From NCBI GenBank assembly GCA_028753945.1, contig JAPNXP010000010.1, positions 5,707,042 to 5,771,041 of the forward strand: a stretch of 64,000 nt of DNA, written 5' to 3'. Position numbers and translations under genes: made by a program. The DNA is from Hexactinellida sp. DTS-2022. Its lineage: Eukaryota > Porifera > Hexactinellida. Every line of letters starts with the position of its first letter. The stretch's first letter is position 1. The notes beneath the pieces are model-generated. The model was not told the DNA's origin and did not search any database. It worked only from the letters and a program-made list of their open reading frames with translations. Shown here in pieces: positions 10,784-33,247 of this stretch.

Positions 10784-10918
10784 TACTAGCTTATGTTGTA
10801 ATACCGACAATTCTATGAGAAAAATGTTATTTATTCATGTATAGAAATGTCGGTATACGGTATATACTACAGTCGAAACAGGTTTTTTCTGACTAACTAT
10901 TTATTTTAAATGTGAAAG

Positions 10919-10966: not shown

Positions 10967-11251
10967 TGTGAAAGAAATTCCAATTTTGTTTTATTTTCAA
11001 TCGATTTAACGTTTCTTACTTTATTTCCATGCAAAGAATTGGTTGGGAAAAAAACGGTTTCGACTGTATTGTTATATGCAGTAACTTGCAACAGAAGGAG
11101 TCGAATTTGTGATGGATAAATATCAAAGATGTACATTCAAAGTTTTACAAATCAAAGAATCGATTAGGATGGCATTGGATGGGTTTGTTAATATTATATT
11201 CAAGCTATGAACATGAACTTGTGAAGCAAGATAACAAATATTTATTCAGTT

Positions 11252-11284
<33 letters not shown>

Positions 11285-11295
11285 TAAGCACAAGT

Positions 11296-12375
11296 TTAAT
11301 ATCTGTAATAAATACTTTCATGGTACTGTGTCATGATGGGCTTGATGTAACTGTTTATATTTTCCATCTTTTGCTTGTCTCTGTATGACTTGTAAACAAC
11401 AACAACAAATATATACAAATAGTTAACAGTAAACAATACTTTACTGAGGATCATTGAAGGCAGGAATACATAAGCTTCCATGGATTGTATGAACAAATAT
11501 ATTCCATGCTTAATATGGAGAGGAATTGGTAAATGATACAAAAATGAAACGATCAGAGCAAATATATCCGATATTCCTAAAGTATAAAAGAAGAGTGCAA
11601 TCGCTACCAAAGTGGTTGCAACCTGGAAATGTACTCGGAGATATTTGCTGTCGAGATAGGCCTTCTTGTCGTAGTAAAACAATCGGATTTCTTTTTCACG
11701 GCTTTTCAGATGCAAATAGAACTTTCGGGACAAATAAAGAAATTGTATATAGTCAAAAATAAAGATGAATGTACTCAACATTGCGAAGAGAATTTCAAAG
11801 TCCGATTGGTAATCGCTTGAGAAAAATTGACTGTCAACAATAATATTTAGAACCGGAATCAACAAAGTCCTTACTATTATGTAAACTGTCCACCGAATTA
11901 AAGTATATTTATAATCGTATTTCCTGTAGGCGAGCCATAAGAAAGTCATCAGAAAAGAAAGCACAGGGACAATCGTATATCTGAGAGAGTATACTAACCA
12001 ACCAATTTTACTTGTGAGCGCAGATATGAAAGGGAGAATGGTTTGGTTTTCCGTATCAAATAGCAAAACCCAATAAGGAAGAAAGAATATGACTACACTC
12101 ATATTTTGCACAAATTCTAAAACGAGAATTACAATTATGAAATTATTGACGACGCATTTTATTTTAAGATTTTTAACATGATTCTTATAAGTTTGTTTTA
12201 TTAGCATTTCCTGTGGAACCCTCTTAATCTCCTGATACAGTTTGTACCTTCTCCGTACGTAGTACACCAATGCAAATAGAGTCAGTACACAGAATGGGAT
12301 AGGGACTAAGGAGTACAAGAGGAATTCTATATTAGAAAAGGTGAATAGGATAGTTTCATATTTGTGCATTGACAT
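11296..12375 (-). CDS. Multi-pass membrane protein, tandem copy 5
   Basis: An intact 359-aa frame starting MSMHKYETILFTFSN, the most upstream gene of the array in transcription order. It keeps the invariant blocks SLVPIPFCVLTLFALVYYV, WLAYRKYDYKYTLIRW and FYLHLKSREKEIRLFYYD and the end QYHESIYYRY, but has its own loop sequences (IIVDSQFFSSDYQSDFEIL). There are 7-8 predicted membrane segments. A TATA-like box is at 12443-12450, and a CAA tract (11252-11283) follows the stop. Function unknown. Confidence 0.8.
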   Translation of the reverse strand: MSMHKYETILFTFSNIEFLLYSLVPIPFCVLTLFALVYYVRRRYKLYQEIKRVPQEMLIKQTYKNHVKNLKIKCVVNNFIIVILVLEFVQNMSVVIFFLPYWVLLFDTENQTILPFISALTSKIGWLVYSLRYTIVPVLSFLMTFLWLAYRKYDYKYTLIRWTVYIIVRTLLIPVLNIIVDSQFFSSDYQSDFEILFAMLSTFIFIFDYIQFLYLSRKFYLHLKSREKEIRLFYYDKKAYLDSKYLRVHFQVATTLVAIALFFYTLGISDIFALIVSFLYHLPIPLHIKHGIYLFIQSMEAYVFLPSMILSKVLFTVNYLYIFVVVVYKSYRDKQKMENINSYIKPIMTQYHESIYYRY

Positions 12376-16066: not shown

Positions 16067-17268
16067 ATAGGTGACGAAGTACTGATGATATTTGGTGTTA
16101 TTGGTGAATGCTGTAGTTGTTGTTGTTGTTGGTTGGGAGGAGATAATTGCTGAGGCAAAATTGAGTATTGTGGTGGCCTACTGTTAGGGATCGATTGTGG
16201 GTAATTATGTTGGGAAACTGGGCCAATTATACTTACGTATGAAGGAGCCAAATCTTGGCTTGATGTCTGACGCATTACAGGGTACATACTTTGGGGAAAA
16301 GGAGGAATATTGTGAGGGTAACGCATTTCGTTCATTGGAATGGATGGGTTTTGAGGCAACATTGGGCGAGATGGTATAATCTGTTGGCTGGAATTAGACG
16401 CCAAATGAGGGTTATTATGAATAGGATTAGGCGGGATTTGGGGATTTCGGATAAAATTAGGCGGCATTTGAGGGTTTCGAATTACATTAGAAGCCATTAT
16501 TGGATTTTGAACAGGAATTGTCGCCATTATGGGATTTTGTATAGAATTATGTGGCATTTGAGGATTTTGAATAGGAATTTGTGGCATTTGAAGATTTTGT
16601 ATAGGATTAGGTGGAATTTGAGGATTTTGGACAAAATTAGGTGGCATTTGATTAGCATTCAAGTATATCGGTCTAGCACCAATAGGCGTAGTATCCAGTG
16701 TATTACTGTGGGATTTAGCTATTGGCAAAGGTTGCGTTTGGAAGCCAGTGGGCAGAGAAAGTCTCGGGGGAATCGAGAAATTAGGATCCTCTTGATCCCT
16801 AGCAGATAGAATCCAGCCTAAACATACCTGTCTTAAGTGTATGGTTATAGAGCCTATCAAATCTAATAGAGTAGAATGTGTATCAGCCCATTTATAGAAA
16901 GGCGAGTATAAGACTGTGCCTAGTTTAGTGTCTAGAAATGGTTCGAAATAAATTTCTGGGAAATTAGTTTGAGTGAAATTTACAATAGGTGCTTGTGATG
17001 GGAAGTTTTTTTCAATCCAAACAGTTAAAGCGCCTGTTATACATAACTGATCAGTGATGGGTGTAATTGTAACTTTTCCATGCAATTTTATAAGTTCATC
17101 TGTTTTGCCTCTGCGTTCAATTACAGCTAATGAGAGTTCTAATGAGTTATATGACGTCATTAATTGGATAGCGTGTTCTACTACAGTATCAGGATTTGTG
17201 TAGTTTAGTTCTTTCAGTTTCTTTTGACAGGAATTAACTGCTGACTCTTCGTTACTCTTAACGCTCAT
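15886..17268 (-). CDS. TSG101-type UEV-domain protein with Pro/Gln repeats
   Basis: A 460-aa intronless gene. Residues about 10-145 match a ubiquitin E2 variant (UEV) domain: GKVTITPITDQLCITGALTV, then FPSQAPIVNF and LYSPFYKWADTHSTLLDLIG correspond to the TSG101 segments around its PxxP and HEW motifs. No catalytic cysteine of E2 enzymes stands in that region. Residues about 205-285 are eight or so decapeptide repeats of the type NPQMPPNFIR, followed by a Pro/Ser/Gln-rich stretch and a run of 22 glutamines (402-423). TSG101 normally continues into a coiled coil and steadiness box; neither is present here. It may still bind ubiquitin or PTAP-like late-domain motifs in ESCRT-I traffic, but the missing core-assembly region argues for a separate, diverged role. 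Confidence 0.72.
15999..16065 (-). repeat. CAA/CAG trinucleotide tract encoding polyglutamine
   Basis: Nearly pure CAA run encoding 22 glutamines near the C-terminus of the UEV protein; likely length-polymorphic. Confidence 0.95.
16414..16656 (-). repeat. 30-base coding repeats (decapeptides)
   Basis: About eight in-frame 30-base units in the UEV gene encoding variants of NPQMPPNFIR/NPQIPPNPIQ. Confidence 0.85.
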
Positions 17269-17639
17269 CCTAATTATATTAATGGTACTTTCTAAGCTGC
17301 TAAAATGTGATATGTATAAATATTCATAGTGTTTTGTAGAAAATATTGGTGTTTGCCTAATAGCAATATGGTATATTGTTTATTAGCAAGTTATTTCAGT
17401 CTTAAATAAAATATAATTAAGGAATTTGTTTGGGTTAACTAAATTCACTGTGGATAATATTGACAAAATAAATATTTTTAAAATGCTTAATTGATAATTT
17501 ATACATATTAAATAAATGATATTAATTTCAAAGATGTTTCAAAATAAAGCAAAACTACAAATTGATCGATCGTTTGCTCGTTACAACTAGGCAAATGGGT
17601 ATTGAGACCTTGAGGCGTTGATGACATGTTGAAAAAAAT

Positions 17640-18197: not shown

Positions 18198-21100
18198 TTA
18201 GCTTCCACCTCTCTTTCGATAAAAGTCCCAATCCATTTTCATTCTATCTTTGTTAACAATAACTTTCCTGTTATGCCTATAAGCATCAAAGTACTTATGA
18301 TACCTGTACGCTATAAGATCAGCGTAATACACTGGTGGTGGAATTGACACGGATTTTGTACACCTTGAGAAGCAATAACAAAGTTGGTTGGTTATAGTGT
18401 ACAATTGGTTTGGTGTGTATTGGATTTCATCTTGTAACACATGGTAGTGAGTTGCCCTAGCAGTGCCTTTAAGAGCCGCGTGGCTGCAAAGATAAAAGTC
18501 GTATTCATAAGGATGAGTAATAACCCTATCAAGATATGTCCCAGGATTTACATTATATTTTTGTTTATCGTTTGTTATTTGAAACATCCTCATATGATGT
18601 CTCTTTTGACAACAAACAAAGGTAATTTTGGGGTTAAAATCTTTGTGTATTCTATGACAAGCGCGTTTCAATGCTGCTAGCTCTTGGTTAAGTGCGTATT
18701 GAAATTGTGACTCTGATACACCATCTCGATAGAACAGAATCCTTTCAGGTTTGGTGCGATTAACATGAATGTATTGGTTTAAGAGATCACCACACATGCT
18801 CTCAAACTCTATTATTATCTCCTGTCTATGTTTGGGATCTACTCTATTAACCTGGAACCGACAAGTGCTGTAATACTGTGTGACATGTTTATCCAGTGCC
18901 ACACAAGCCACGGCAATAGAAGGGTACTCTAGCATATTAGGGCCTGGCTTAGAATGGTTAACATCAGCTCCCATCACCATTGTTCCATTCAAAAGTTCGA
19001 CTGTTTCTTCTACTGTTGCGAAATGGTTTATGCCACCAAGTTTCGCGTTGATTTTCAAACAAATACCACCAATAGTGGAGCCTTTAACATTTGATGCATT
19101 TTTCTGATCAATGCATTGGGTTAATATGTTCAGTTCTGAATCTCCTATCAACTTTATTTGGTTATAAATATCATCACTGTTAATATTACCGACTTTCAAA
19201 TCACGATCTATGATACAGAGTATCATTTGTAGTCCACTAAATGTTTCATAAATTGAATAAATCAAGTCACGTATATCACCGATCCCTCCTCTTATATTAC
19301 TCCAGTTATTTTGTGTATCTCTTTCGTTAATCGGTCTATTCATTTGTATGCCTTTCAACTTTGCTTGTTTCTGTAATTCAGTAATAAGATAGTCGTATCG
19401 TACCTCATTACCATACCTGCTTATATGTGCTATGGCCCAATGGTCAAATGGAATAGCAGTAATAAGATGACAACCTGTAATCTGCCATTTTCCCGATTGA
19501 TCTTTGATAGTTTCATTCCTATATTGTATATTAGGTGGATTTAATTGTCCACATACCGCTTCAGTCATTTGGTTGCTAGTTTTAATATTATAATAGTCGC
19601 GTAGCGGGTCATTTGAAGGCAAAACAGCGTATGCAACATCTTCTATCATTTCGCATCTTTTGTTCGGCCAAAGTGCGGTCGCTTCAATCATATTTTGTTT
19701 CTGAAACTTATTCAATTCATCGTGTTTGACCTGACCACGTTTAATGACACAGACTTCCAATGGCATAGCTATAACCTTATCTCCTCTACCAACATTAATG
19801 CACAGGAGATTTGGGTATTCTAAAATATAATCGTATGCAGTTTCAAAATATTTCTGTACAGTTATTTTCTTGTCTTCATATAAAAAAGATTCTACGTTTG
19901 CTGGCCTTAAAAACACATCGGATGATCTAAGCTTTATCTTATATTTCCGATTGTAACTTATGTGGTTAGGAAATATTTCTAAACCGGATATTTCCTTTGC
20001 TGCCTTTTCTTGAACATCAAATTGTAATAATCTACGAGTAAGTTCACTCCTATTTCTGAGTCTCAGAAATTGGGATAAATAATCAACTAAGTTAATAGGC
20101 TTAAAGAAGGGCCGATATGACAAATCAACATTCAAATAAACCTGTTTGTATCCCGGTCGAGCTGACTGAAAGAATCCGTCCCATAACTCGATTCCTGGAT
20201 CTAAGTCGGAAATATTAGACCGACAAAACCCTCTACCAACACTGGTGTAATTGAATGCAGCGAATTGTCTGAAAATCGTATCTAGCGCATTCATGGCAGC
20301 TTGATATTCATATATGAATTTATCGTGTTGTGATTTAGAATCAAACTTCTCTTCACGTAAAGTTATTTCTGTTATGAGTGAAAGGTCAACACTTGCTGTA
20401 CGTTTCAATACAACAAAATGCGAGCGTTTTATATCAGATACGCCGCTATCCTTTTCAAACCAATCTACCTTGTATTTCCCTTCTATTTGTTCCTTGCAAT
20501 ACATAATGGCTCTACCATCATAAGCGGGAAACGCATTATTTAGTTGTTGCTTACACAATGCACTGAATACCATCTTACACACGTATTTATTCGTTACGTC
20601 ATTATCACTGATATCTCCATTAAGGTTAATGGGGAATATTTTAACGTCAAATTGGTGAATACAAATGTTAGGGATTTGGATTGGGAAGAAGTTAACAAGA
20701 ACTTTAATTGTTTTTCCTAATGACCCATAACCGGGTCTGTTCGGAGGAATATAGCTGGGAGAAATGTGGAGTTGAATTTGTTTTGTTTCTTTTGGAGAAT
20801 CTTGTTTTGTTTGTTTTGGAGATTGTTGTTGTTTTGTTTGTTTTGTAGCTCCACCTTGAGACGTCGCTTCACTTTCCTTGACAACCACAGGTGGAGGTTG
20901 GAATGCTGATGGAATTTTATCTTTAGGATTTTGTTTTTGTTTAGGAGTTTGTTGTTGTTTAGGAGATTGTTGTTGTTTTGTTGTAAACTCGTATTTAGTA
21001 GCTCCACCTTCACTTTCCTTGTCAACCAGAGGTGGAATTTGGAATTCTTCAATTTGTTGCGGAATAAATTCAGCTCCTTTCTCTTTCAAAGTAGTTTTAG

Positions 21101-21203
21101 AAATTTGTTCTGAGAGTTTGGTTTCTATTACTTCCTTAGGAACAGTTCCTTTGCTTTGGAATGAATTTTTCTTGCCTTTCTTTGCGCCCCGACCTGAACT
21201 CAT
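18198..21203 (-). CDS. Argonaute (AGO clade), intronless
   Basis: A 1001-aa uninterrupted frame. Order: Lys/Gln/Pro-rich N-terminus (1-150), N and linker region (about 155-375), PAZ (about 375-495, with PLEVCVIKRGQ after the fold), MID and PIWI (about 600-980). The slicer tetrad is present: Asp747 in MGADVNH, Glu795 in HRQEIIIEF, Asp827 in FYRDGVSESQF and a His of ATHYHVL (919 or 921). QKRHHMRMF, YLCSHAALKGTARATHYH and SVSIPPPVYYADLIAYR are AGO-clade rather than PIWI-clade signatures. It should bind a small guide RNA and cleave complementary RNA. Unusual points are the long low-complexity N-terminus and a basic tail (RKRGGS) instead of the common YFA end. Its 5' flank and first 39 codons are duplicated several times in the next 10 kb. 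Confidence 0.96.
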   Translation of the reverse strand: MSSGRGAKKGKKNSFQSKGTVPKEVIETKLSEQISKTTLKEKGAEFIPQQIEEFQIPPLVDKESEGGATKYEFTTKQQQSPKQQQTPKQKQNPKDKIPSAFQPPPVVVKESEATSQGGATKQTKQQQSPKQTKQDSPKETKQIQLHISPSYIPPNRPGYGSLGKTIKVLVNFFPIQIPNICIHQFDVKIFPINLNGDISDNDVTNKYVCKMVFSALCKQQLNNAFPAYDGRAIMYCKEQIEGKYKVDWFEKDSGVSDIKRSHFVVLKRTASVDLSLITEITLREEKFDSKSQHDKFIYEYQAAMNALDTIFRQFAAFNYTSVGRGFCRSNISDLDPGIELWDGFFQSARPGYKQVYLNVDLSYRPFFKPINLVDYLSQFLRLRNRSELTRRLLQFDVQEKAAKEISGLEIFPNHISYNRKYKIKLRSSDVFLRPANVESFLYEDKKITVQKYFETAYDYILEYPNLLCINVGRGDKVIAMPLEVCVIKRGQVKHDELNKFQKQNMIEATALWPNKRCEMIEDVAYAVLPSNDPLRDYYNIKTSNQMTEAVCGQLNPPNIQYRNETIKDQSGKWQITGCHLITAIPFDHWAIAHISRYGNEVRYDYLITELQKQAKLKGIQMNRPINERDTQNNWSNIRGGIGDIRDLIYSIYETFSGLQMILCIIDRDLKVGNINSDDIYNQIKLIGDSELNILTQCIDQKNASNVKGSTIGGICLKINAKLGGINHFATVEETVELLNGTMVMGADVNHSKPGPNMLEYPSIAVACVALDKHVTQYYSTCRFQVNRVDPKHRQEIIIEFESMCGDLLNQYIHVNRTKPERILFYRDGVSESQFQYALNQELAALKRACHRIHKDFNPKITFVCCQKRHHMRMFQITNDKQKYNVNPGTYLDRVITHPYEYDFYLCSHAALKGTARATHYHVLQDEIQYTPNQLYTITNQLCYCFSRCTKSVSIPPPVYYADLIAYRYHKYFDAYRHNRKVIVNKDRMKMDWDFYRKRGGS

Positions 21204-21297
21204 AATTTTAACTAAAATCTAATTTCTATAAACTAATATTATAATCAGCATATACATTTTCCTTGAATAATAGCCGGTACGATTAATAATTTTGATT

Positions 21298-21400
21298 ATT
21301 AACCGGAGTAATACCCATTGAATAGCCATTTGTGGAACTGTTTGTTCGTCTTAACCGTGTTCGTACTAAATAGGTTCGACTGTAGCTAGTATCTCTCGGG
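21298..21400. mobile_element. Family A element remnant in the Argonaute 5' flank
   Basis: Internally deleted copy of the CAGTAGAACCTCGTTAGTAC family lying about 100-200 bases upstream of the Argonaute ATG; absent from the duplicated Argonaute 5' ends. Confidence 0.6.
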
Positions 21401-21596
21401 AGTGTCATTCGAAATAATTTAATGCAGTTTTTCTAATTAATTTAATAAATAAAGAACTGAACAAGTAAAATACAGATTACTTAAGCTCAGTTACTGTAAC
21501 TGAACTGCCATATAAGGAATGTTTCAATTCTAAAAGACCCATAAGCTCAGAAATAAATTCAGACATAAATAAAAAGCTACTTCAGTTATAATTTTG

Positions 21597-21711
21597 TAAT
21601 TCAAATTACCTGCTAACATTGAAATTTGTTGGTAAACTTATTGAACTTACTTTGAGAAATGCACACTAATTCCCTCAAATGACGCCGCAGTTCTTTCACT
21701 GTAGTAAGCAT
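21597..21711 (-). pseudogene. Small-gene copy s1 (exon 2 deleted)
   Basis: Exon 1 is intact (ATG at 21711, protein MLTTVKELRRHLRELVCISQ, donor GTAAGT after 21651). The second exon is reduced to its last few bases before the GTAATT donor, so the WHSPHCPERWPK part is lost. The following intron and 3' flank (about 21410-21597) resemble the other copies and abut the Argonaute upstream region. Confidence 0.7.
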
Positions 21712-21885
21712 GGTTTGACTTTTACTGATTGATCTGCTGTAGTATGATTGGTTTGACTTTTACTGATTGATCTGCTAGTATGATTGGTTTGACTTTTACT
21801 GATTGATCTGCTGTAGTATGATTGGTTTGACTTTTACTGATTTATCTGCTGTATAGTATGATTGATTTGACTTTTACTCGTCAAT
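21706..21885. repeat. Minisatellite of about 40 bases
   Basis: Four to five tandem units containing GGTTTGACTTTTACTGATTG and ATCTGCTGTAGTATG. They appear to be an expansion of the region between the promoter and exon 1 of small-gene copy s1. Confidence 0.85.
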
Positions 21886-21893
21886 CGTTGGTC

Positions 21894-22080
21894 AAAAAGT
21901 AGTTTTAGAAATTTGTTCTGAGAGTTTGGATTCTATTACCTCCTTAGGAACAGTTCCTTTGCTTTGGAATTTTTTTTTTTTGCCTTTCTTTCCGCCCCGA
22001 CTTGAACTCATAGTTTTAACTAAAATCTAATTTCTAAATAAACTAATAATATAATCAGCATGTACATTTTCCTTTATCAT
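21894..22080 (-). pseudogene. Argonaute 5'-end fragment 1
   Basis: Copy of the Argonaute 5' flank and first 39 codons (ATG at 22011, MSSSRGGKKGK...). The frame stops just beyond the junction, at ACTACTTTTTGA. The junction leads into small-gene promoter sequence (TCAATCGTTGGTC on plus). An A-run has replaced the normal GAAAAATTC region. Confidence 0.85.
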
Positions 22081-22300
22081 AACTGTATTACCTTTTGACT
22101 AGAGGCCTTTATGCACTTTTTGCTTAGTAATTAGTATAGTTCTAGTATTACAACAGCATAATAGTTTTGTTGTAAAATTCGAAAAATTTCTCGATATTGT
22201 TTGCGGCCTGAGGAAATTTTGTTAAGATTTTGTGGCCTGATATAAATGAAAGTTTGTGGAACCCTGTATTAAGCTGTGTTGACTATATTTCAGTATAACT
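22074..22300. repeat. hAT-like repeat P, copy 1
   Basis: Contains GCGGCCTGAGGAAA and GTGGCCTGATATAAATG and a terminal GTGGAACCCTG. Homologous stretches are at 25860-26130 (inverted), 27145-27470 and 62856-62945. The motif CAGGGTTCC..CAAACT resembles hAT termini. Confidence 0.6.
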
Positions 22301-22383
22301 AATAGAGAACTATAAATTGATTATCTTGCCGTGCTTTTGGACCATATATGAATTTAGGTATATAAGTGTACTCGATAATACAT

Positions 22384-22562
22384 ACAGTATAGCCTCGTTT
22401 GTACGAATACCAACGGACGGTAAAATTTTATCCGGAGTTCGTATTAACCGGAGTAATACCCATTGAATAGCCATTGTAAGGACCTGATTTTGTGGAACTG
22501 TTTGTTCGTCTTATCCGGAAATTCGTATTAACCGTGTTCGTAACTAACGAGGTTCTACTGTA
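22384..22562. mobile_element. Family A inverted-repeat element
   Basis: Starts ACAGTATAGCCTCGTTTGTA and ends TAACGAGGTTCTACTGTA, i.e. CAGT...ACTG next to TA as in pogo/Tigger-type elements. No transposase is present. Confidence 0.8.
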
Positions 22563-22667
22563 GCTATCTCTCGGGAGTGTCATACGAAATAATTTAATGC
22601 AGTTTTTCTAATTAATTTAATAAATAAAGAACTGTACAAGTAAAATAATATAAATACGTGTATTGAA

Positions 22668-23160
22668 TTAAATTATTTGTTCCATTACTGTAAATTGAAT
22701 CTTTGGAGCTAGAAGATAAAAGAAATTAATGTTAACTTGACGAGACGAAGTATCACAAATAGGAAATAATTTTTTGTGGTTAAAATTGTTATACGAATTA
22801 CCTGCTATCATTGATGCAATAACCTTTATCAATTGACACTTTTTCAATTTGTTTGGATCTATAAATTCGACGTCCTTTGGCCATCTCTCTGGACATTGGG
22901 GGGAGTGCCAAACTCATTTCCCCACATTTGATCCTGCTAAATATATTATATAATCCTCAAATAGAATTTGGAATAAATGCCTGGGTATTTAATTCTAATA
23001 ATATGGGCATATTTAGTTTATCAGTCAAAAATTAATTAAGTAGTTTTAATTGAATTATTAAGAATTGATGAATTAAATTCATGAACTTACTTTGAGAAAT
23101 GCAGACAAGTTCCCTCAAATAACGCCGCAGTTCTTTCACTGTAGTATGATAGGTTTGACT
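22668..23160 (-). pseudogene. Small-gene copy s2 (start lost, stop in exon 2)
   Basis: Exon 1 region ends at 23091, exon 2 is 22936-22802 and exon 3 is 22708-22668. The usual ATG codon is missing before TTVKELRRYLRELVCISQ, and the codon for the first Cys of exon 2 is TGA. Exon 3 would encode PKIQFTVMEQII and a stop after a CTTCTAG acceptor. It is the left arm partner of intact copy s3 in an inverted repeat. Confidence 0.7.
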
Positions 23161-23445
23161 TACACTCACGTCCTATTTATAGTTTTCTTGAAGGTAACTT
23201 GTCAATCGTTCGTTTGGTATAAATAGAGGCTCTGCTTTAACAGTTTAGAAATCTAGCTTTGTCTTTGCAATACTACGAGTACTAGTGCAGTATTGAGGTA
23301 TTGCAAAGGCTAACTATGTGGGAAATGCCGCTGTATTGCAATTGCTAATGTGATGCATTGTCAATGCAGCTGTACTGAGAATGTTGCTATATCGCAGATA
23401 CTTTGTGTGCAAATGCTGCCTTATTGCAATGTTGTTCTTTTTGTT
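23160..23445. repeat. Inverted repeat, left arm
   Basis: Reverse complement of 24611-24900 with only a handful of differences. The arm includes the divergent promoter pair and a 220-base stretch (GGCTCTGCTTTAACAG... to ...GCCTTATTGCAATG) with no convincing frame. The spacer (23446-24610) is not repeated in the window and no gene was recognised in it. Confidence 0.92.
23174..23225. promoter_or_regulatory. Divergent pair of TATA boxes (left arm)
   Basis: TATAAATA reads leftwards at 23181-23174 toward small-gene copy s2 and rightwards at 23218-23225 toward the repeat interior, only 36 bases apart. The core CAATCGTTCGTTTGG lies between them. This looks like a bidirectional promoter. Confidence 0.6.
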
Positions 23446-24610
23446 TATTGTTTCTTGTTGTTATATTTTCTTGTTACTCAACAATTTTCAATTGATTCTG
23501 AATTTTAGAAATGTAACTGTAGCTATTTTAATCAAACTCCCCTCAAGTGCTTATGTGTGTTGTAGGAATCAGTAGGATAATTTGTTCCCGGATTTCCTAG
23601 TTACCAACTAGATGTAAGTATATTTGACGTTTTGACGTTTATTCGAGTTATTTGTTTTAAACCTTTAAGAGGGGCGTAATATTCGAGTAAACACGGATTA
23701 TTTATGTAGGTCATTTGACTCATTTCTTAGTTGACTAATTCATTGAATTATATGGATGGTTGATAAACTTGTAATGTTATAATTTATTATTGCAATTGAG
23801 ATTATTGATAGATAATGGCAGATATTCTAAGACATAATTTCAAGATACGTAACTTTACATATTAAACGAGTAAGGGCCGCAGGCCCGAATGCAAGTTGTA
23901 AGAACGCGCGTACGCGGACAAGCAGCTTGTATTTTATAATGTGACTTAATTTTGTAACGACTGAATCAAAATTGTGAGAGCTCATTCCAAATTAGTTCCT
24001 ATGTGACGCCATAAACCCATAAATAGGTCGCGTGTTTCATTTCATGAAGTCTTGCCGTCTAAAATTGTCGGCGAATCGGATACAAACTGAGAGTTATTCC
24101 CAATATACGTATGCCTTTATGAGCTCATAATCCCGTTATTTCGTTTAGAAAACAATCAGAACGTTGTCAGCGTGTAAAATTATCCCCGCTTGCAAATTTT
24201 CAGATTTCTAGAGCATATGGTATTTCCTATTAATTCAGGACAAACAAACAGACAACAATTGTGCTCTTAATTAATATACATATAGAGATAAATATACAAT
24301 CGAAACTTTGCAGAATAATATACATGCACTAAATTATCTGCTCCATTACTGTTCGAATCTTTCAGCTAGATGTCACAAATTAGTGTTAACTTGACTCCAC
24401 AGCACTTTCCCTTACTGTAGACAACCAAATATATTGCATAAAAGTACGTATAAATATAACAATTATATTTGAAAAATTCTAGCAAAAATCCTTATTTTCA
24501 GTACTATTATTGTGCCAACTTAGATTACTGAATTGAGTTGGTGCCTTGGTGGTAACATGTATTTCCTATTAATATTAACTTGATTTCAACAAGAAAAAAT
24601 AAACTAAGAA
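23446..24610. other. Spacer of the inverted repeat
   Basis: Non-repeated AT-rich sequence with a small GC-rich hairpin (GGGCCGCAGGCCC near 23875) and, near 24330-24370, a remnant resembling small-gene exon 3. No coding gene is supported. Confidence 0.5.
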
Positions 24611-24900
24611 CGAACATTGCAATAAGGCAGCATTTGCACACAAAGTATCTGCGATATAGCAACATTCTCAGTACGGCTGCATTGACAATGCATCACATTA
24701 GCAATTGCAATACAGCGGCATTTCCACATAGTTAGCCTTTGCAATACCTCAATACTGCACTAGTATTCGTAGTATTGCAAAGACAAAGCTAGATTTCTAA
24801 AACTGTTAAAGCAGAGCCTCTATTTATACCAAACGAACGATTGACAAGTTACCTTCAAGAAAACTATAAATAGGACGAGAGTGTAAGTCAAATCATTCAA
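24611..24900. repeat. Inverted repeat, right arm
   Basis: Partner of 23160-23445. It ends at the TATA box and leader of intact small-gene copy s3. Confidence 0.92.
24821..24872. promoter_or_regulatory. Divergent pair of TATA boxes (right arm)
   Basis: Rightward TATAAATA at 24865-24872 stands about 75-140 bases before the candidate ATGs of copy s3; the leftward box is at 24828-24821. The rightward core, AACTATAAATAGGACGAGAG, is also found before copies s4, s6 and s7. Confidence 0.6.
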
Positions 24901-25007
24901 ACTACAGCAAAGATCAGTAAAGTCAAATCTATCAAACTACAACAGTGTCGTCAAATCTATCATACTCAGCAAATCAGATGTCGTATCATATCAGCCAAAG
25001 TGAAATA

Positions 25008-25486
25008 ATGTTTACTACAGTAAAAGATCTCAGGAGACATCTTAGGGAACTAGTCTCCATTTCTCAAAGTAAGTTCATTAATTTAATTCATCAATTCTTA
25101 ATAATTCAATTAAAACTACTTAATTAATTTTTGAATGATAAACTAAATATGCCCATATTATTAGAATTTAATACCCAGGCATTTATTCCAAATTCTATTT
25201 GATGATTATATAATATATTCAGCAGGATCAAGTAAGGGGATATGCGTTTGGCATTCCCCTCAACGTCCAGAGAGATGGCCGAAAGAAATTTCATTCCAGG
25301 ACCCCAACAAACTAAAGAAGGGGGAACTGATTAAAGTGATAGGATCAATGCTATCAGGTAATTTGCATTACAAATTTAACCACAACAACCATTTCCTATT
25401 TGAAATACTTAGTCTCGTCAGTTAACATTATTTTCTTTTATCTTCTAGATCCAGATATTATTATTATAAAAGAAGAAATAATTTAA
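25008..25486 (+). CDS. Small-gene copy s3, intact, three exons (77 aa, unknown function)
   Basis: Exons 25008-25068, 25223-25357 and 25449-25486 join in phase (GTAAGT/TTCAG and GTAATT/TTCTAG introns). The product starts MFTTVKDLRRHLRELVSISQ, continues through GICVWHSPQRPERWPK and DPNKLKKGELIKVIGSML and ends DPDIIIIKEEII. An upstream in-frame ATG at 24945 would add 21 residues. It is a small, basic, Trp/Pro-containing protein with a likely helix at each end. I recognise no domain. Six other copies lie in the same 11 kb, most of them broken, so this is one of two candidates to be functional. The TATA box is at 24865. Confidence 0.55.
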
Positions 25487-25601
25487 TTAATAATAGATGT
25501 ATGTATATTATTTTACTTGTTTGTGTTTCAGTTCTTTATTTATTAAATTAATTAGAAAAACTGCTTTAAATTATTTCGTATGACACTCCCGAGAGATAGC
25601 T

Positions 25602-25787
25602 ACAGTAGAACCTATTTAGTTACGAACACGGTTAATAGGAATTTCCGGATAAGACAAACAAACAGTTCCACAAAATCAGGCTATTCAATGGGTATTCAAT
25701 GGGTATTACTCCGGTTAATACGAACTCCGGATATAGCGAACAAATTTTTACCGTTCGTTGGTATTCGTACAAACGAGGTTATACTGT
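25602..25787. mobile_element. Family A inverted-repeat element
   Basis: Starts ACAGTAGAACCTATTTAGTT and ends AAACGAGGTTATACTGTA. It is the inverted counterpart of the element at 22384-22562 in the mirrored half of the cluster. Confidence 0.8.
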
Positions 25788-25859
25788 ATGTATTATCGAG
25801 TACACTTATATACCTAAATTCATATATGGTCCAAAAGCACGGCAAGATAATCAATTTAT

Positions 25860-26130
25860 AGTTCTCTATTATTATACTGAAATATAGTCGACACCGCTTA
25901 ATACAGGGTTACGAAAACTTTCATTTATATCAGGCCACAAAATCTTAACATAATTTTCCTCAGGCCGCAAACAATATCGAGAAATTTTTCGAAACTATTA
26001 TGTTGTTGTAATACTAGAACTATAATAATTACTAAGCATAAAGTACATAAAGGCCTCTAGTCAAAAGGTAATACAGTTATGATAAAAGTAATGACAATAA
26101 TATTTAGTGAGAAGGGTGGATTTGTCATTG
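25860..26130. repeat. hAT-like repeat P, copy 2 (inverted)
   Basis: Reverse complement of the sequence at about 22074-22300 and 27236-27470, so the mirror symmetry of the cluster extends beyond the arms described above. Confidence 0.6.
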
Positions 26131-26349
26131 TCTGCACAGCTGTAATTTTAGATTTTATTTATATACTGACAAACCTTTTAACAAATCCTTCAATTGACTA
26201 TGTTCAATAGATGCGAACCCTTCTCAATTGCTTTAGAAGCTAACTATATATACTGACTCCTTGTAATATTCCTCGTGGGTTCTTTCTTTTTGTTATAATG
26301 CTCCTATGAAAAAAGTATAAAACTGTTCCCTTAAATATTTAAAACGAAT

Positions 26350-26415
26350 TTCAGGCTAATACGAACATATTTAGACGGTCCCCTGGTGTTCGTACTAACG
26401 AGGTTCTACTATACG
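26350..26415. mobile_element. Family A element, one end only
   Basis: Right end of family A (GGTCCCCTGGTGTTCGTACT ... AACGAGGTTCTACTATAC). Confidence 0.6.
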
Positions 26416-26627
26416 TATGTTGATAACTTTTATGTTTATTTTTTATGATACTAACTAGAGCAGATTCCATAACATATAATAATAATTGTCAATTTACTGG
26501 TAATTACTAAATAATAAATTTCAGATAGATACGTAGATTGATTCAATTCTAAAAGACCCATAAGCTCAGAAATGAAATTTACACATAAATAAAAACCTAC
26601 TTCAGTTAAAATTTGTAATACAATTAC

Positions 26628-26946
26628 CTGATAACATGGCTGATATTACTTTAATAAGTATAGCCTTTTTCAGTTTATTTGGGTCCTGAAATTTGACTTC
26701 TCTGGGCCATCTCTCTGGACATAGGGATATCCAAATGCATTTCCCCACTCTTGATCCTGCTGGATATATTATATAATCCTCAAATAGAATTTGGAATAAA
26801 TGCCTGGGTATTTAATTCTAATAATACGGGCATAAAAAATTAATGAATTATTAAAGAATTGATGAATTAAATTAATTAACTTACTTTGAGAGATGCACAC
26901 AAGTTCCCTTCAAATGTTTCCTGAGATCTTTCACTGTAGAATACAT
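26628..26946 (-). pseudogene. Small-gene copy s5 (frameshift in exon 1)
   Basis: Exon 1 (ATG at 26946) has one extra base (CATTTGAAGGGAACT against CATTTGAGGGAACT), which shifts the frame. Exon 2 (about 26759-26628) stays open (GKCIWISLCPERWPREVKFQ). A family B element sits directly upstream of the ATG. Confidence 0.7.
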
Positions 26947-26956
26947 AATTTGATAA

Positions 26957-27085
26957 TACAGTGGATGCGGGTAAGAAGGACATCGTCGGGAACTGCACTT
27001 AATGTGCTTATAACCGACATAAATTATATAGGGTATATGGCAACCGTTATCCAACATAGTGTTCTTATAACCGGTGTGCTTATAT
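26957..27085. mobile_element. Family B element upstream of copy s5
   Basis: Starts ACAGTGGATGCGGGTAAGAAGG and carries repeated TTATAACCG motifs; the right end is incomplete. The insertion point matches that in copies s4, s6 and s7. Confidence 0.7.
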
Positions 27086-27144
27086 TATAAAGTTTTACGA
27101 GTTTTGACCCGATTAAGCGGAGAAATCTATTAACCGTATTAAGC

Positions 27145-27470
27145 CAGGGTTCCACAAACTAGGTTTTTCAGGCCGCATGCCCCTAAACAACCTTATGTGT
27201 GGCCTGATAGCCCAATTGCTATCATGCCACACATAAGGACAAATTCACCCTTCTCACTAAATATTATTGTCATTACTTTTATCATAACTGTATTACCTTT
27301 TGACTAGAGTCCTTTATGCACTTTTTGCTTAGTAATTATTATAGTTCTAGTATTACAACAACATAATAGTTTCGAAAAATTTCTCGATATTGTTTGCGGC
27401 CTGAGGAAAATTATGTTAAGATTTTGTGGCCTGATAAAAATGAAAGTTTGCGGATGTGGAACCTGTATTA
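27145..27470. repeat. hAT-like repeat P, copy 3
   Basis: Includes CAGGGTTCCACAAACTAGG, two copies of ATGTGTGGCCTGATAGC-type sequence in opposite sense, and the GCGGCCTGAGGAAA segment shared with copies 1 and 2. Confidence 0.6.
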
Positions 27471-27501
27471 AGTGGTGTTGACTATATTTCAGTATAACTA
27501 A

Positions 27502-27663
27502 TACAGTGGATGCCGGTTATAAGCACATCGTTGGGAACTGCACTTAATGTGCTTATAACCGACATAAATTATACAGGGTTTATGGCAACCGTTTTCCAAC
27601 ATAGTGTGCTTATATCCGATATGTTCTTATAACCGGTGTGCTTATATCCGACATCTACTGTAT
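27502..27663. mobile_element. Family B inverted-repeat element
   Basis: ACAGTGGATGCCGGTTATAA at the left and ATATCCGACATCTACTGTA at the right, with TTATAACCG/TTATATCCG repeats inside. Confidence 0.85.
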
Positions 27664-27795
27664 AACTATAAATTGATTATCTTGCTGTACTTTTGGACCA
27701 TATATGAATTTAGGTATATAAGTGTATTCGATAATACAACGTACCTGGTATCTATCGGGAGTGTCATTCGAAATAATTTAATGCAGTTTTTCTAA

Positions 27796-28307
27796 TTAAT
27801 TTAATAAATAAAGAACTGAACAAGTAAAATACAGATTACTTATATGGAGCTCAGTTACTGTAACTGAACTGTCATATAAGGAATGTTTCAATTCTAAAAG
27901 ACCCATAAGCTCAGAAATAAATTCAGACATAAATAAAAACCTACTTCAGTTAAAATTTTGTAATTCAAATTACCTGCTAACATTGATCCTATCACTTTTA
28001 TTAATTCCGCCTTTTTCAATTTATTCGGGTCTTGAAATGTCACTTCCTTCGGCCATCTCTCAGGACAGTGAGGGGAATGCCAAATGCATTTCCCCACATT
28101 TGATCCTGCTGAATATATTATATAATCCTCAAATAGAATTTGGGATAAATGCCGGGTATTTAATTCTAATAATATGGGTATAATAAATTAATTAATAGTT
28201 TTAATTGAATTATTAAAGAATTGATGAATTAAATTAATGAACTTACTTTGAGAGATGGACACAAGTTCCCTCAGATGTCTCCTGAGATCTTTCACTGTAG
28301 AATACAT
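27796..28307 (-). CDS. Small-gene copy s6, intact exons 1 and 2
   Basis: Exon 1 28307-28247 (MYSTVKDLRRHLRELVSISQ) and exon 2 28108-27974 (GKCIWHSPHCPERWPK, DPNKLKKAELIKVIGSML) are open and join in phase. A third exon from 27893 to 27796 after TCTTTTAG would give a different 32-residue tail starting ELKHSLYDSS; without that splice the frame continues into the intron to a stop. Total about 98 aa. The family B element at 28319-28598 separates the ATG from the conserved TATA promoter, so the element would be part of the leader. Function unknown. Confidence 0.45.
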
Positions 28308-28318
28308 AATTTGATAAT

Positions 28319-28598
28319 ACAGTGGATGCCGGTTATAACTTATTACTTATAAGGACATCGTCGGGAACTGCACTTAATGTGCTTATAACTGTTCTTACAC
28401 GGGCGTCGCACGGCTCTAAAAACTGTACGGTCAAACAGTTAAAGTGGTCCGGACCGCGTGCTACGCCTATGTCTTATAAACGACATAAATTATACAGGGT
28501 ATATGGCAACCGTTATCCAACATAGTATTCTTATAACCGGTGTGTTTATATCCGATATGTGCTTATAACCGGTGTGTTGATATCCGATATCTACTGTA
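28319..28598. mobile_element. Family B element in the leader of copy s6
   Basis: Full-length element from ACAGTGGATGCCGGTTATAA to ATATCCGATATCTACTGTA. It is itself interrupted by a GC-rich block (28390-28472). Confidence 0.85.
28390..28472. mobile_element. GC-rich insertion nested in the family B element
   Basis: An 83-base block absent from other family B copies, flanked by CTTATAAC (28382-28389) and CTTATAAA (28473-28480), an 8-base near-repeat. Near its ends GGGCGTCGCACG and the complement of CGTGCTACGCCT form imperfect inverted repeats; hAT-like insertion is likely. Confidence 0.6.
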
Positions 28599-28604
28599 TT
28601 TGAC

Positions 28605-28665
28605 TTACACTCTCGTCCTATTTATAGTGTTCTTGAAAGTAACTCGTCAATCGTTCGTTTGGTCA
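28605..28665 (-). promoter_or_regulatory. TATA promoter of copy s6
   Basis: Conserved core with ACTATAAATAGGACGAGAGT, directly joined upstream to an Argonaute 5'-end fragment. Confidence 0.5.
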
Positions 28666-28671
28666 AAGTAG

Positions 28672-28860
28672 TTTTAGAAATTTGTTCTGAGAGTTTGGAT
28701 TCTATTACTTCCTTAGGAACAGTTCCTTTGCTTTGGAATTAATTTTTCTTGCCTTTCTTTCCGCCCCGACCTGAACTCATAGTTTAAACTAAATCTAATT
28801 TCTAAATAAACTAATAATATTATCAGCTTATACGGTACGATTAATAATTTTGATTATTTA
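28672..28860 (-). pseudogene. Argonaute 5'-end fragment 2
   Basis: Copy of Argonaute 5' flank and first 39 codons (ATG at 28780), but with a TAA in place of the codon after GKKN, so it encodes only about 13 residues. The junction with the small-gene promoter is the same as in the other fragments. Confidence 0.85.
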
Positions 28861-28871
28861 ATCTATGATGT

Positions 28872-29052
28872 AGAGTAGTAGACTCTCGTTAATAGGAACA
28901 CGGATAAGGGGGAATATCGGTTAAGGAGCACAAAGTTTAATTCCCTAGCCTATTAGTATACATATGCATGCAAGTGACTCGGTTAATACGAATTTCAGGA
29001 TAATACCAACATATTTAGACGGTCCCCTGGTGTTCCTATTAACGAGTCTCTA
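28872..29052. mobile_element. Family F inverted-repeat element
   Basis: GTAGACTCTCGTTAATAGGA at the left and TTCCTATTAACGAGTCTCTAC at the right. Confidence 0.75.
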
Positions 29053-29058
29053 CTTATA

Positions 29059-29237
29059 TAGTAGAACCTCGTTAGTACGAACACGGTTAATACGAATTTC
29101 CTGTTAGTATAAACACAATTTGTGAACCCTTCAAAAGATTTCCAATTCAAATTACACCGGTTTATAATACAAATTTCAGGCTAATACGAACATATTTAGA
29201 CGGTCCCTTGGTGTTCGTACTAACGAAGTTCTACTAT
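29059..29237. mobile_element. Family A inverted-repeat element
   Basis: TAGTAGAACCTCGTTAGTAC to CGTACTAACGAAGTTCTACTA. The F-A pair is duplicated at 30213-30576 together with the neighbouring Argonaute fragment. Confidence 0.8.
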
Positions 29238-29450
29238 ACGTATATTGATAACTTTTATGTTTATTTTTTATGTTACTAACTAGAGCAGATTTTATATCAG
29301 ATAATAATAATTGTCAATTCACTGGTAATTACTAAATAATAACTTCTAGATAGATACGTAGATAGATTCAATTCTAAAAGACCCATAAGCTCAGAAATAA
29401 ATTCAGACATAAATAAAAACCTACTTCAGTTAAAATTTGTAATGCAAATT

Positions 29451-29783
29451 ACCTGCTACATTGATGCAATAACCTTTATCAAATCAGCCTTTTTCAATTT
29501 GTTTGGATCCTTGAATTCGACGTCCTTAGGCCATCTCTCTGGACAGTGAGGGGAATTCCATACGCATTTCCCTCACTTGATCCTGCTGGATATATTATAT
29601 AATCCTCAAATAGAATTTGGAATAAATGCCTGGGGGTATTTAATTCTAATAATATGGGCATAAAAAATTAATTGAATTATTAAAGAATTGATTGGGATCT
29701 TGAATTAAATTAATGAACTTACTTTGAGAGATGCACCCAAGTTCCCTTAGATGTCTCCTGAGCTCTTTCACTGTAGTAAACAT
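29451..29783 (-). pseudogene. Small-gene copy s7 (frameshifts in exon 2)
   Basis: Exon 1 29783-29723 is intact (MFTTVKELRRHLRELGCISQ). Exon 2 lacks one base in the GTGTGGGGAAATGC region and another near the end, so the frame is broken. Confidence 0.7.
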
Positions 29784-29793
29784 AATTTGATAA

Positions 29794-29929
29794 TACAATG
29801 GATGCCGGTTATAAGGACATCGTCGGGAACTGAACTTAATGTTCTTATAAGTTATAACCGACATAAATTATATAGGGTATATGGCAACCGTTATCCAACA
29901 TAGTGTGCTTATATCCGATATCTACTGTA
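29794..29929. mobile_element. Family B element in the leader of copy s7
   Basis: ACAATGGATGCCGGTTATAA to ATATCCGATATCTACTGTA, at the same place as in s4 and s6. Confidence 0.8.
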
Positions 29930-29952
29930 TTTGACTTACACTCTCGTCCTAT

Positions 29953-30200
29953 TTATAGTGTTCTTGAAGGTAACTTGTCAATCGTTCGTTTGGTCAAAGT
30001 AGTTTCACAAATTTGTTCTGAGAGTTTGGTTTCTATTACTTCCTTAGGAACAGTTCCTTTGCTTTGGAATGAATTTTTCTTGCCTTTCTTTGCGCCCCGA
30101 CCTGAACTCATAATTTTAACTAAAATCTAATTTCTAAATAAACTAATAATATTATGATTATCAGCATATACGGTACGATTAATAATTTTGATTATTTAAT
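29953..30200 (-). pseudogene. Argonaute 5'-end fragment 3 with intact 52-aa frame
   Basis: ATG at 30111; the first 39 codons match Argonaute closely (MSSGRGAKKGKKN...KLSEQICETTL), then TKRTIDKLPSRTL read from the small-gene promoter, with the stop TAA at 29955-29953 lying inside the CTATAAATA box. About 90 bases of upstream sequence also match the Argonaute flank. It could be translated as a short Argonaute-N-terminal peptide or serve only as promoter/leader. Confidence 0.85.
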
Positions 30201-30212
30201 CTATGATGTAGA

Positions 30213-30391
30213 GTAGTAGACTCTCGTTAGTAAGAACACGGATAAGGGGGAATATCGGTTAAGGAGCACAAAGTTTAATTCCCTAGCCTATTAGTATACA
30301 TATGCATGCAAGTGACTCGGTTAATACAAATTTCAGGCTAATACCAACATATTTAGACGGTCCCCTGGTGTTCCTATTAACGAGTCTCTAC
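30213..30391. mobile_element. Family F inverted-repeat element, duplicate
   Basis: Copy of the element at 28872-29052 in the duplicated block. Confidence 0.75.
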
Positions 30392-30398
30392 TTATATA

Positions 30399-30576
30399 GT
30401 AGAACCTCGTTAGTACGAACACGGTTAATACGAATTTCCTGTTAGTATAAACACAATTTGTGAACCCTTCAAAAGATTTCCAATACAAATTACACCGGTT
30501 TATAATACAAATTTCAGGCTAATACGAACATATTTAGACGGTCCCTTGGTGTTCGTACTAACGAGGTTCTACTATA
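30399..30576. mobile_element. Family A inverted-repeat element, duplicate
   Basis: Copy of the element at 29059-29237 in the duplicated block. Confidence 0.8.
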
Positions 30577-30795
30577 CATATATTGAAAATAACTTTTATG
30601 TTTATTTTTATGTTACTAACTAGAGCAGATTCCATATCAGATAATAATAATTGTCAATTTACTGGTAATTACTAAATAATAACTTTCAGATAGATACGTA
30701 GATTCACTAATCGAGCAATTCCTAAATTATCAAAAATCAACAAGTTATGAAGTTTGAACAGAGTGAGTAAAGAAGGAGGAAAATACGTAGATTTT

Positions 30796-33247
30796 CTAAA
30801 CTTGGCAGATAACTTTCGGTTTTCCTTCCTTAGAGGAATCTGCGTGAGAGAAAAACTGGAAAAGTACAAAGTTAGAAAGACCAGCATGTTTCTGCAGACT
30901 ATTTTTAAGAATTTTCCCAATCCTATCTTGTCTAGCTTTATTCAAATCCCGTGTCCATAGAGCCAATCTATCATTTTTCTGTTTTATTTCAATAACAGCT
31001 CCACATATATCATTAGAAAGAGGCTCTTCATCTTTTGGCGATTGTTCGTCTATAAATCCCTCTCCGATTAGTAGCATTAGAGTCTCGAACCAATGTGTAG
31101 TGGACCCCTTGCTACCTCCGTCTTTGGAACGGTTTATTGTTATCAGCCAACGTCCGCCGTTCTTGTTAGAAGGATCCTCCCACATTGGACGGATATCCTT
31201 TTTGAAAACAGAATAGTTGCAATTGAATGGGAGGCGATCAGGAGGCTTGATGTACCTGCGAAATATAATTTATAATACAGTCGAAACGGTTATAAGCACA
31301 TCGTCGGGAACTGCACTTAATGTTCTTAAAACCGCTGTGCTTATATCCGACATATACTGTACAGTGGAAACCGGTTTTTTTCTAACTACAGTCGACTCCG
31401 CTTAATAGAGTCACCTCGGAACCAGGTTACCTTGACCCCATTAAGCAGAGAAATCTATTAACCGAAAATATTTTAAGCCAAACTGTCATTCCGTCCTATA
31501 AATCCTGTGAAATTTTGATCCCATTAATAGTTTATTTAGAAATTAGATTTTAGTTAAAATTATGAGTTCAGGTCGGGGCGTTAAGAGAGGCAAGAAAAAT
31601 AAATTCCAAAGCAAAGGAACTTTTCCTAAGGAAGTAATAGAAACCAAACTCTCAGAACAAATTTCTAAAACTACTTTGACCAAACGAACGATTTACAAGT
31701 TACCTTCAAGAACACTATAAATAAGACGAGAGTGTAAGTCAAATACAGTAAATGTCGGATATAAGCACACCGGTTATAAGAACATATCGGATATAAGAAC
31801 ACTATGTTGGAAAACGGTTGCCATATACCCTGTATAATTTATGTCGGTTATAAGCACATTAAGTGCAGTTCCCGACGATGTCCTTATAACCGGCATCCAC
31901 TGCACTGTATTATCAAATTATGTATTATACAGTGAAAGAGCTCAGGCGACATCTGAGGGAACTTGTGTGCATCTCTCAAAGTAAGCTCATGAATTTAATT
32001 CATCAATTCTTTAATAATTCAATTAAAACTAATTTATTAATTTTTTATGCCCATATTATTAGAAATACCCAGGCATTTATACCAAATTCTATTTGAGGAT
32101 TATATAATATATCCAGCAGGATCAAGTGTGGGGAAATGTGTTTGGCATTCCCCTCACTGTCCAGAGAGATGGCCAAAAGACATCGGATTTATAGATCCCA
32201 ACAAATTGAAAAAGGCCGAATTGATTAAAGTGATATATCAATGTTAGCAGGTAATTCGTAAATTACAAAATTTTAACTGAAGTAGGTTTTTATTTATGTC
32301 TGAATTTATTTCTGAGCTTATGGGTCTTTTAGAATTGAAACATTCCTTATATGGCAGTTCAATTACAGTAACTGTGCTCCATATAATTAATCTGTATTTT
32401 ACTTGTTCAGTTCTTTATTTATTAAATTAATTAGAAAAACTGCATTAAATTATTTCGTATGACACTCCCGAGAGATACCAGCTACAGTAGAACCTCGTTA
32501 GTTACGAACACGGTTAAGCGAATTCGACTGTGTATATTATAAAGTGTAAGAAATTCCAATTTTGTTTTATTTTCAATCGGTTTATTCTAACTATCGGATT
32601 TTCTTACTTTATATCTGCATAGAATTGGATAAAAAACCCGATTTCGACTGTACAGTAGAACCTCGTTAGTACGAACAACAAGGGAACGTCAAAATGCGTT
32701 CGCCTTATCCGGAATTAAGACAGTAGAACTCGGTTAAAACGTACTCTCGGGAAAATAAATTATGTACGTACTACCGAGTTTACCCAACATAGAATACTGT
32801 TCTACAAACTTAAAATAAACTAGTACGTACTAAGCCAGGTTATAGCCGAGTTTTACTTACTACAAATTACAGTAGTGTTCGCGTAATAGTAAGTCGCATT
32901 TGGCACGAAATTTGCTTGCTATTAGAGGAACATAATTAACTTGCTTCCAAGGAGCTCAAAATAATTTGCTAATAGAGCAATTGCTATTAGGCGAACACCA
33001 CTGTACTAACTAACCTAAAGCAAGACCAGAATCCTTCAATAGAATTGAATGAAATAATTTCTTGAAAACAGTCACTCCATTCCTTAGTAGAATCTTGTTT
33101 GAAGAACCACAGAGTCCAAGTATTCTGTAGCGGATGAGTCGCAATAGGATTATTATCTGCTGACTCGGTTGCATCAGCTGATGGAACAGCTGGTGCTAAT
33201 TCCTCAACGGATTCCTTACATATCGGATCTGCCACTTGTGTTGCCAT
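30796..33247 (-). CDS. EIF4E: Translation initiation factor eIF4E (two exons)
   Basis: Exon 1 is 33247-33015 (donor AG|GTTAGT) and exon 2 is 31255-30796 (acceptor TTTCGCAG). The join is in phase and gives 230 aa. The cap-binding residues of eIF4E are recognisable: Trp57 (TKEW), Trp103-Glu104 (PMWED), Trp178 (ALWTR), with HPLQNTWTLWFFK, GGRWLITINR and FFSHADSSKEG. It binds the mRNA cap and recruits eIF4G. There is a short acidic insertion (EQSPKDEEPLS) after the GEGF segment compared with vertebrate eIF4E, and a 2-residue-short C-terminal loop. The 1.76-kb intron contains, on the opposite strand, Argonaute fragment 4 and small-gene copy s4, plus several inverted-repeat elements. Confidence 0.96.
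31277..31360. mobile_element. Family B element, short, in eIF4E intron
   Basis: ACAGTCGAAACGGTTATAAG to ATATCCGACATATACTGTA, internally deleted. Confidence 0.7.
31390..31470. mobile_element. Family E element end in eIF4E intron
   Basis: Left end ACAGTCGACTCCGCTTAATA; the right end is not present. Confidence 0.6.
31530..31720 (+). pseudogene. Argonaute 5'-end fragment 4 with intact 52-aa frame
   Basis: ATG at 31562; the first 39 codons resemble Argonaute (MSSGRGVKRGKKNKFQSKGT...), followed by TKRTIYKLPSRTL and TAA at 31718-31720 within the TATA region. It lies antisense inside the eIF4E intron and leads into copy s4. Confidence 0.85.
31744..31909. mobile_element. Family B element in the leader of copy s4
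   Basis: ACAGTAAATGTCGGATATAA at the left and TTATAACCGGCATCCACTG at the right, inverted relative to those at s6 and s7 as expected for the opposite gene orientation. Confidence 0.8.
31920..32250 (+). pseudogene. Small-gene copy s4 (frameshift in exon 2)
   Basis: Exon 1 31920-31980 is intact (MYYTVKELRRHLRELVCISQ). Exon 2 32117-32250 keeps GKCVWHSPHCPERWPK but lacks one base in the GTGATAGGATCAATG region, leading to a stop (KVIYQC). It is located antisense in the eIF4E intron. Confidence 0.7.
32720..32862. mobile_element. Inverted-repeat element, family M
   Basis: ACAGTAGAACTCGGTTAAAA at the left; the right end AGCCGAGTTTTACTTAC is its near-complement. It lies in the eIF4E intron. Confidence 0.65.
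32869..33004. mobile_element. Family D element next to the eIF4E 5' splice site
   Basis: ACAGTAGTGTTCGCGTAATA to ATTAGGCGAACACCACTGTA. Its right end lies about 10 bases from the donor of eIF4E exon 1. Confidence 0.8.

Follow-up and report, generated by a model that had tools for sequence, protein, structure and literature searches.

The Argonaute gene and four copies of its 5′ end

We analysed a 64,000-nucleotide stretch of the Hexactinellida sp. DTS-2022 genome (C2:5707042-5771041; hereafter the window), whose proteins include DHHC, NHL-repeat, RFC1, eIF4E and Argonaute proteins. The subject of this study is the Argonaute gene together with four fragments of its 5′ end (f1 to f4) and a repeat-borne small gene (SG) to which these fragments are joined. 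The ArgoN, ArgoL1, PAZ and Piwi domains of the Argonaute protein all scored above their Pfam cut-offs, and the solved structures that matched it best were Argonaute-3 and Argonaute-2 chains. Genome-wide searches covered 112.4 Mb in 18 contigs, designated here by number (C1, C17 and so on), and returned 15 Piwi-domain matches, which we grouped into approximately nine loci, one of them broken. The coordinates of all features are collected in Table 1.

An earlier note on this DNA had reported four extra copies of the Argonaute 5′ end near the parent gene, and a blastn comparison of the Argonaute 5′ region with the window recovered all of them: f1 (21896-22074, 92.7% identity), f2 (28663-28858, 85.7%), f3 (29994-30196, 88.0%) and f4 (31525-31679, 94.2%). 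The Argonaute part common to the fragments consists of the 5′ flank, 39 codons and one base, after which the sequence passes into the SG core promoter. The note had placed this switch at the same base in all four copies. This was exact for f2, f3 and f4, while f1 switches at the same point with small indels. Accordingly, the junction 17-mer ACTACTTTGACCAAACG was found unchanged in three of the four fragments (0.00 expected by chance, as estimated from shuffles), and the junction of f1, which lacks the TATA stretch, reads CTTTTTGACCAACG. At the switch, the Argonaute gene has CTACTTTGA and the native SG has CTATTTATA, CC being next in both the fused and the native SG. The sequence at this place is CTATTTATACCAAACG upstream of the native SG, CTACTTTGACCAAACG in the fused form and CTACTTTGAAAGAG in the Argonaute gene, with one base shared at the switch. 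As also described in the note, two copies (f3 and f4) keep a 52-aa frame whose stop codon lies inside TATAAATA; in f1 all 39 codons are open and the first stop comes at codon 40. Compared with the parent, the coding part differs at 10 (f1), 3 (f2), 2 (f3) and 6 (f4) out of 118 positions.

The small gene is carried by dispersed repeats

The window contains seven SG copies, only four of which are preceded by an Argonaute fragment, a point absent from the earlier note. The unfused partner of the junction is also present, since the native SG upstream sequence precedes SG2 and SG3 and was aligned in repeats on other contigs. SG2 and SG3 are divergent and form the arms of a palindrome (Table 1). Related inverted SG pairs were found at two places on C1 (9.21 and 9.72 Mb) and on C3, C5 and C11; all five fetched loci carried a 21-bp minisatellite, and an approximately 128-bp sequence also recurred among them. 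C1 and C5 each have a third SG copy next to the pair, and this copy is broken.

By our reading, the conserved frame runs uninterrupted through seven of the 18 SG exon-2 sequences extracted, and four more are stop-free, nine bases shorter and altered in their residues. Ten pairwise comparisons among five of the seven conserved-frame copies (the two omitted encode peptides identical to others) gave dN/dS values of 0.15-0.33 with dS of 0.53-0.83, indicating that SG was once a constrained gene. The SG copies are far more diverged than the Argonaute fragments. More distant relatives were detected on C5 (51% identity) and at five places on C17 (38-41%); these five exon-2 relatives are clustered at C17:3814932-3841268. 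Searches of SG against Pfam produced only a match to PF11001 that fell below the cut-off of that family (E 2.9e-4 and 1.1e-5), and those against the PDB only two matches, both to designed proteins (E 0.05-0.06).

A probable single fusion multiplied by local duplication

The proposal of the note that one fusion had occurred and was then multiplied was supported by two kinds of evidence. First, the junction is common to the copies in the window (with indels in f1) and to a partial copy on C17, which the note had not included. Second, the SG copies share insertions. A miniature inverted-repeat transposable element (MITE) occupies one position between the TATA box and the start codon in SG5, SG6 and SG7, and its right end is found in SG4. 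In addition, a dispersed repeat of about 124 bp lies within intron 2 of SG1, SG4, SG5, SG6 and SG7 and is missing from SG2 and SG3. The shared MITE and intron-2 repeat point to one fusion followed by copying. Duplication also extended beyond the fragments: across 802 bp, the units of f2 and f3 show 95.6% identity, and their upstream flanks differ at 12 of 504 positions. Clustered copies with duplicated flanks are what a local chimeric segmental duplication entails. In our view, there was probably only one fusion event, in which one base was shared and whose product then spread as tandem and inverted duplicates, and the fragments are probably passive passengers of a local duplication cluster.

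Several observations weigh against this interpretation. No single tandem duplication accounts for all the junctions, and SG5 and SG6 are only 84% alike compared with 95.6% for the f2 and f3 units. Three f2 variants are common to f1 and missing from f3; together with the SG5 and SG6 difference, this makes the history a mosaic. In the third SG copies on C1 and C5, the intron-2 repeat typical of the fused lineage is present with no fragment detected, so that either the fragment was lost there or the repeat predates the fusion. Finally, the chimeric piece on C17 means that at least one copy left the cluster.

Two more specific models were considered and rejected. A single tandem duplication of a segment ordered SG promoter, SG and Argonaute 5′ end would explain why f1, SG1 and the parent gene follow one another. 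It fails for f3, because the sequence in front of f3 is the eIF4E 3′ region and not an SG, and we do not put this model forward. Gene conversion was considered for a 138-bp run identical between the parent and f3 (at most 1 in 10000 shuffles). It was dropped, because 10 of the 12 differences fall in one 22-bp stretch that probably reflects an indel aligned wrongly, and drift next to a parent under constraint is explanation enough.

Table 1. Features of the Argonaute locus, with positions numbered from the first base of the window.
Feature	Position	Strand	Remarks
Parent Argonaute gene	18198..21203	-	Single open frame, 1001 aa; ArgoN, ArgoL1, PAZ, Piwi
Source segment	21086..21300	-	Argonaute 5′ flank (97 bp), 39 codons and one base
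f1	21894..22074	-	Small indels at junction; followed by SG1; TATA stretch missing
f2	28663..28858	-	Stop at codon 14; followed by SG5
f3	29994..30196	-	52-aa frame open; followed by SG6; 114 of 183 21-mers identical to Argonaute gene
f4	31525..31679	+	52-aa frame open; followed by SG7; reversed within eIF4E intron; 61 of 135 21-mers match Argonaute perfectly
SG core promoter containing TATAAATA, attached to f3	29921..29993	-	Equivalents at 28590-28662 (minus) and 31680-31752 (plus)
Unit copy A (f2 and flanks)	28572..29363	-	95.6% identical to unit copy B
Unit copy B (f3 and flanks)	29903..30703	-	Ends at eIF4E 3′ region
SG1	21345..21711	-	Exon-2 region deleted; behind f1
SG2	22565..23147	-	Native upstream; stop in exon 2; palindrome arm
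SG3	25003..25598	+	Native upstream; open in three-exon model; other palindrome arm; no fragment
4-kb palindrome with SG2 and SG3	22073..26086		Arm pieces 87% and 96% alike
SG4	26536..26951	-	Exon 1 broken; no fragment; retains right end of 5′ MITE
SG5	27741..28312	-	First two exons open; exon 3 uncertain; behind f2
SG6	29367..29790	-	Exon 2 frameshifted; behind f3
SG7	31915..32524	+	Frameshift late in exon 2; behind f4
eIF4E coding exon 1	33015..33247	-	Splice signals and domain match
eIF4E intron with f4 and SG7 reversed	31256..33014	-	Splice model
eIF4E coding exon 2 with stop	30796..31255	-	Splice signals and domain match

Distribution in the genome and transposon capture

When the f3 DNA was searched against the whole genome, six places were found (all six candidates scored): the parent gene, f1 to f4 and C17:4190091-4190196. 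According to a warning of the search tool, very common words may be overlooked in such a search. The junction pattern, allowing up to two mismatches, occurred at 12 places, of which four were exact (three in the window and one on C17). The other eight carried two mismatches and were taken as chance matches, because a reversed control pattern matched 28 places. The C17 piece comprises 97 bp of Argonaute and 40 bp of promoter, is 96-97% identical to the window copies, has two f4 variants in common and ends approximately 180 bp from a uricase frame. Minisatellites of 16 bp and 20/21 bp adjoin this fragment near the uricase gene.

As controls for multiplicity, other sequences of the window were searched likewise. 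For the 5′ end of the gene adjacent to Argonaute (17150-17400), 11 places matched: its own position, a long copy on C6 (90%) and nine short stretches of 47-94 bases. The eIF4E 5′ end matched itself and at least 39 short sequences of 47-74 bases (40 of 448 candidates scored), and for the stretch from f3 to the eIF4E stop the matches were mostly to dispersed MITEs (40 of 3652 candidates scored). The copy on C6 (C6:4384779-4391716) is a partial segmental copy of the window, in which the Argonaute body is 92-95% identical, contains stops and is missing the first ~170 codons; it also includes the 5′ end of the neighbouring gene, which lies at 17268 (90%). This partial copy indicates that the Argonaute neighbourhood duplicates readily.

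These distributions bear on whether a transposon multiplied the fragments. A mobile SG repeat could have captured the 5′ end of Argonaute, perhaps as a countermeasure to silencing, and two findings agree with this: five other loci, which have flanking sequence in common, carry SG pairs embedded in larger repeats, and the chimeric C17 piece sits beside a minisatellite also present at SG-pair loci. However, the whole-genome search placed an Argonaute fragment at none of the five other SG-pair loci, which makes capture a poor source of the multiplication and speaks against a mobile counter-defence. No terminal repeats were seen around the fragments, the repeat ends being delimited by alignment only, nor was any transposase-like frame apparent by eye among the frames of at least 90 aa in two translated repeat loci, with no library comparison. 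Instead of the genome-wide occurrence within an ordinary transposon that the note had named among the grounds for abandoning its proposal, we found one copy outside the cluster, which is partial and whose context is not shown to be an element. Transposon capture is thus very improbable, and local duplication remains our preferred explanation.

Coding constraint and promoter function

The note had suggested that the fragments might simply provide promoters for SG. A broader form of this idea would have the Argonaute promoter drive SG, or a 52-aa chimeric peptide be made from the fusion; the frame kept in f3 and f4 and the past constraint on SG exon 2 would be in keeping with it. However, the base changes in f1 to f4 gave no sign of selection on the 52-aa peptide. 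Summed over the four fragments, with shared changes counted each time, the 39 codons contain 17 nonsynonymous and 3 synonymous changes, and our recount with shared changes counted once yielded 12 and 3, the nonsynonymous share expected for these codons being 73-78%. Moreover, three of the four attached SG copies (SG1, SG6 and SG7) are broken and only SG5 among them has open exons 1 and 2, whereas the fragment-free SG3 is open, a pattern that does not support the promoter role proposed in the note. The MITE separates the TATA box from the start codon in SG5, SG6 and SG7, and in f1 the TATA stretch is missing altogether. Promoter donation or a new chimeric gene is therefore highly improbable. 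More generally, we infer from the unconstrained 39 codons, the three broken SG copies and the f1 copy without its TATA stretch that a function of the fragments looks unlikely.

An antisense copy in the eIF4E intron

A feature absent from the earlier note is that f4 and SG7 lie inside an intron of the only eIF4E gene detected. The genome-wide search for the eIF4E family returned two matches (three candidates scored), both in the window, which correspond to the two exons of one minus-strand gene, and the spliced model encodes a 230-aa protein with an IF4E domain. If this gene model is correct, the eIF4E pre-mRNA should contain a stretch of approximately 155 nt that is antisense to the 5′ end of Argonaute. 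In turn, f3 lies downstream of the eIF4E 3′ end, and the f3 and f4 units constitute a close inverted repeat (84.9% over 840 aligned columns); the sequence requirement for double-stranded RNA (dsRNA) is present.

This geometry would suit a source of regulatory RNA of the kind suggested in the note, in which small RNAs that damp the Argonaute mRNA arise either from the f4 antisense within the eIF4E pre-mRNA or from a hairpin formed by read-through of f3 and f4. The perfect Argonaute matches among the f4 21-mers and the number of Piwi-domain loci in the genome are compatible with such a route, but an Rfam scan of 15000-36000 gave no match, the coding changes in the fragments look neutral and the attached units decay. 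We regard a regulatory RNA source as very improbable. To the narrower proposal, that eIF4E transcription yields antisense or small RNAs restraining the neighbouring Argonaute gene through a linkage created by one inverted duplication, we give very little credence. Were the intronic copy active, transcription of a neighbouring gene would produce, as a by-product, RNA that damps Argonaute, and this would offer an explanation, open to testing, of how the RNA-silencing machinery came to regulate itself.

For the passive duplication that we favour, we infer the repair mechanism and the order of the earliest steps as follows. A repeat-borne SG would already have been near the Argonaute gene, or would have landed there. 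In a single event, the Argonaute 5′ flank and 39 codons may have been copied and joined to the SG core promoter, the one shared junction base being an outcome possible from either end-joining or replication template switching. After the fusion, the MITE would have inserted between the TATA box and the SG start codon, and the chimeric unit would have been duplicated in tandem to give the units of f2 and f3, copied in reverse into the eIF4E intron to give f4, and carried to C17 as a short fragment. The chimeric copies are now decaying. Read in this way, the locus is a worked example of a repeat cluster copying the start of a silencing gene and fusing it to another promoter.

Elsewhere in the window, four related open frames of 359-378 aa are arranged in tandem at 2848-12375, the first two of which are nearly identical. 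By eye they are hydrophobic and resemble membrane proteins, and the one compared with Pfam gave no match.

Comparison with known systems

None of the titles and abstract openings listed in literature searches describes this arrangement; we do not claim that it is absent from print. A report on worms deals with Argonaute regulation by another route (PMC12401492). In rice, miR820 in CACTA transposons is reported to act against OsDRM2 (PMC3459959); as here, repeat-associated DNA matches a silencing gene, whereas the dispersed repeats studied here were not found to carry such a match (none of five loci). At the soybean I locus, CHS inverted repeats are reported to give small interfering RNAs (siRNAs; PMC6710647). 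Both loci have close inverted gene copies with potential dsRNA against related mRNAs, but in our case the repeated part of the target is only about 155-200 bp long and the arms are separated by an eIF4E exon. Pack-TIR duplication of gene fragments in animals (PMC8277862) resembles our locus in that host gene fragments are duplicated in a setting rich in DNA transposons; in contrast, no terminal inverted repeats were seen around the Argonaute pieces, and the Argonaute fragment was not found at the other SG-pair loci. The chimeric segmental duplications attributed to replication-based repair (PMC2518615) share with this locus a one-base junction, tandem and inverted copies and the joining of gene pieces irrespective of exons. 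Here, to arrive at seven SG copies and four Argonaute pieces, duplication must have occurred in several rounds, for which replication-based repair would be a candidate mechanism.

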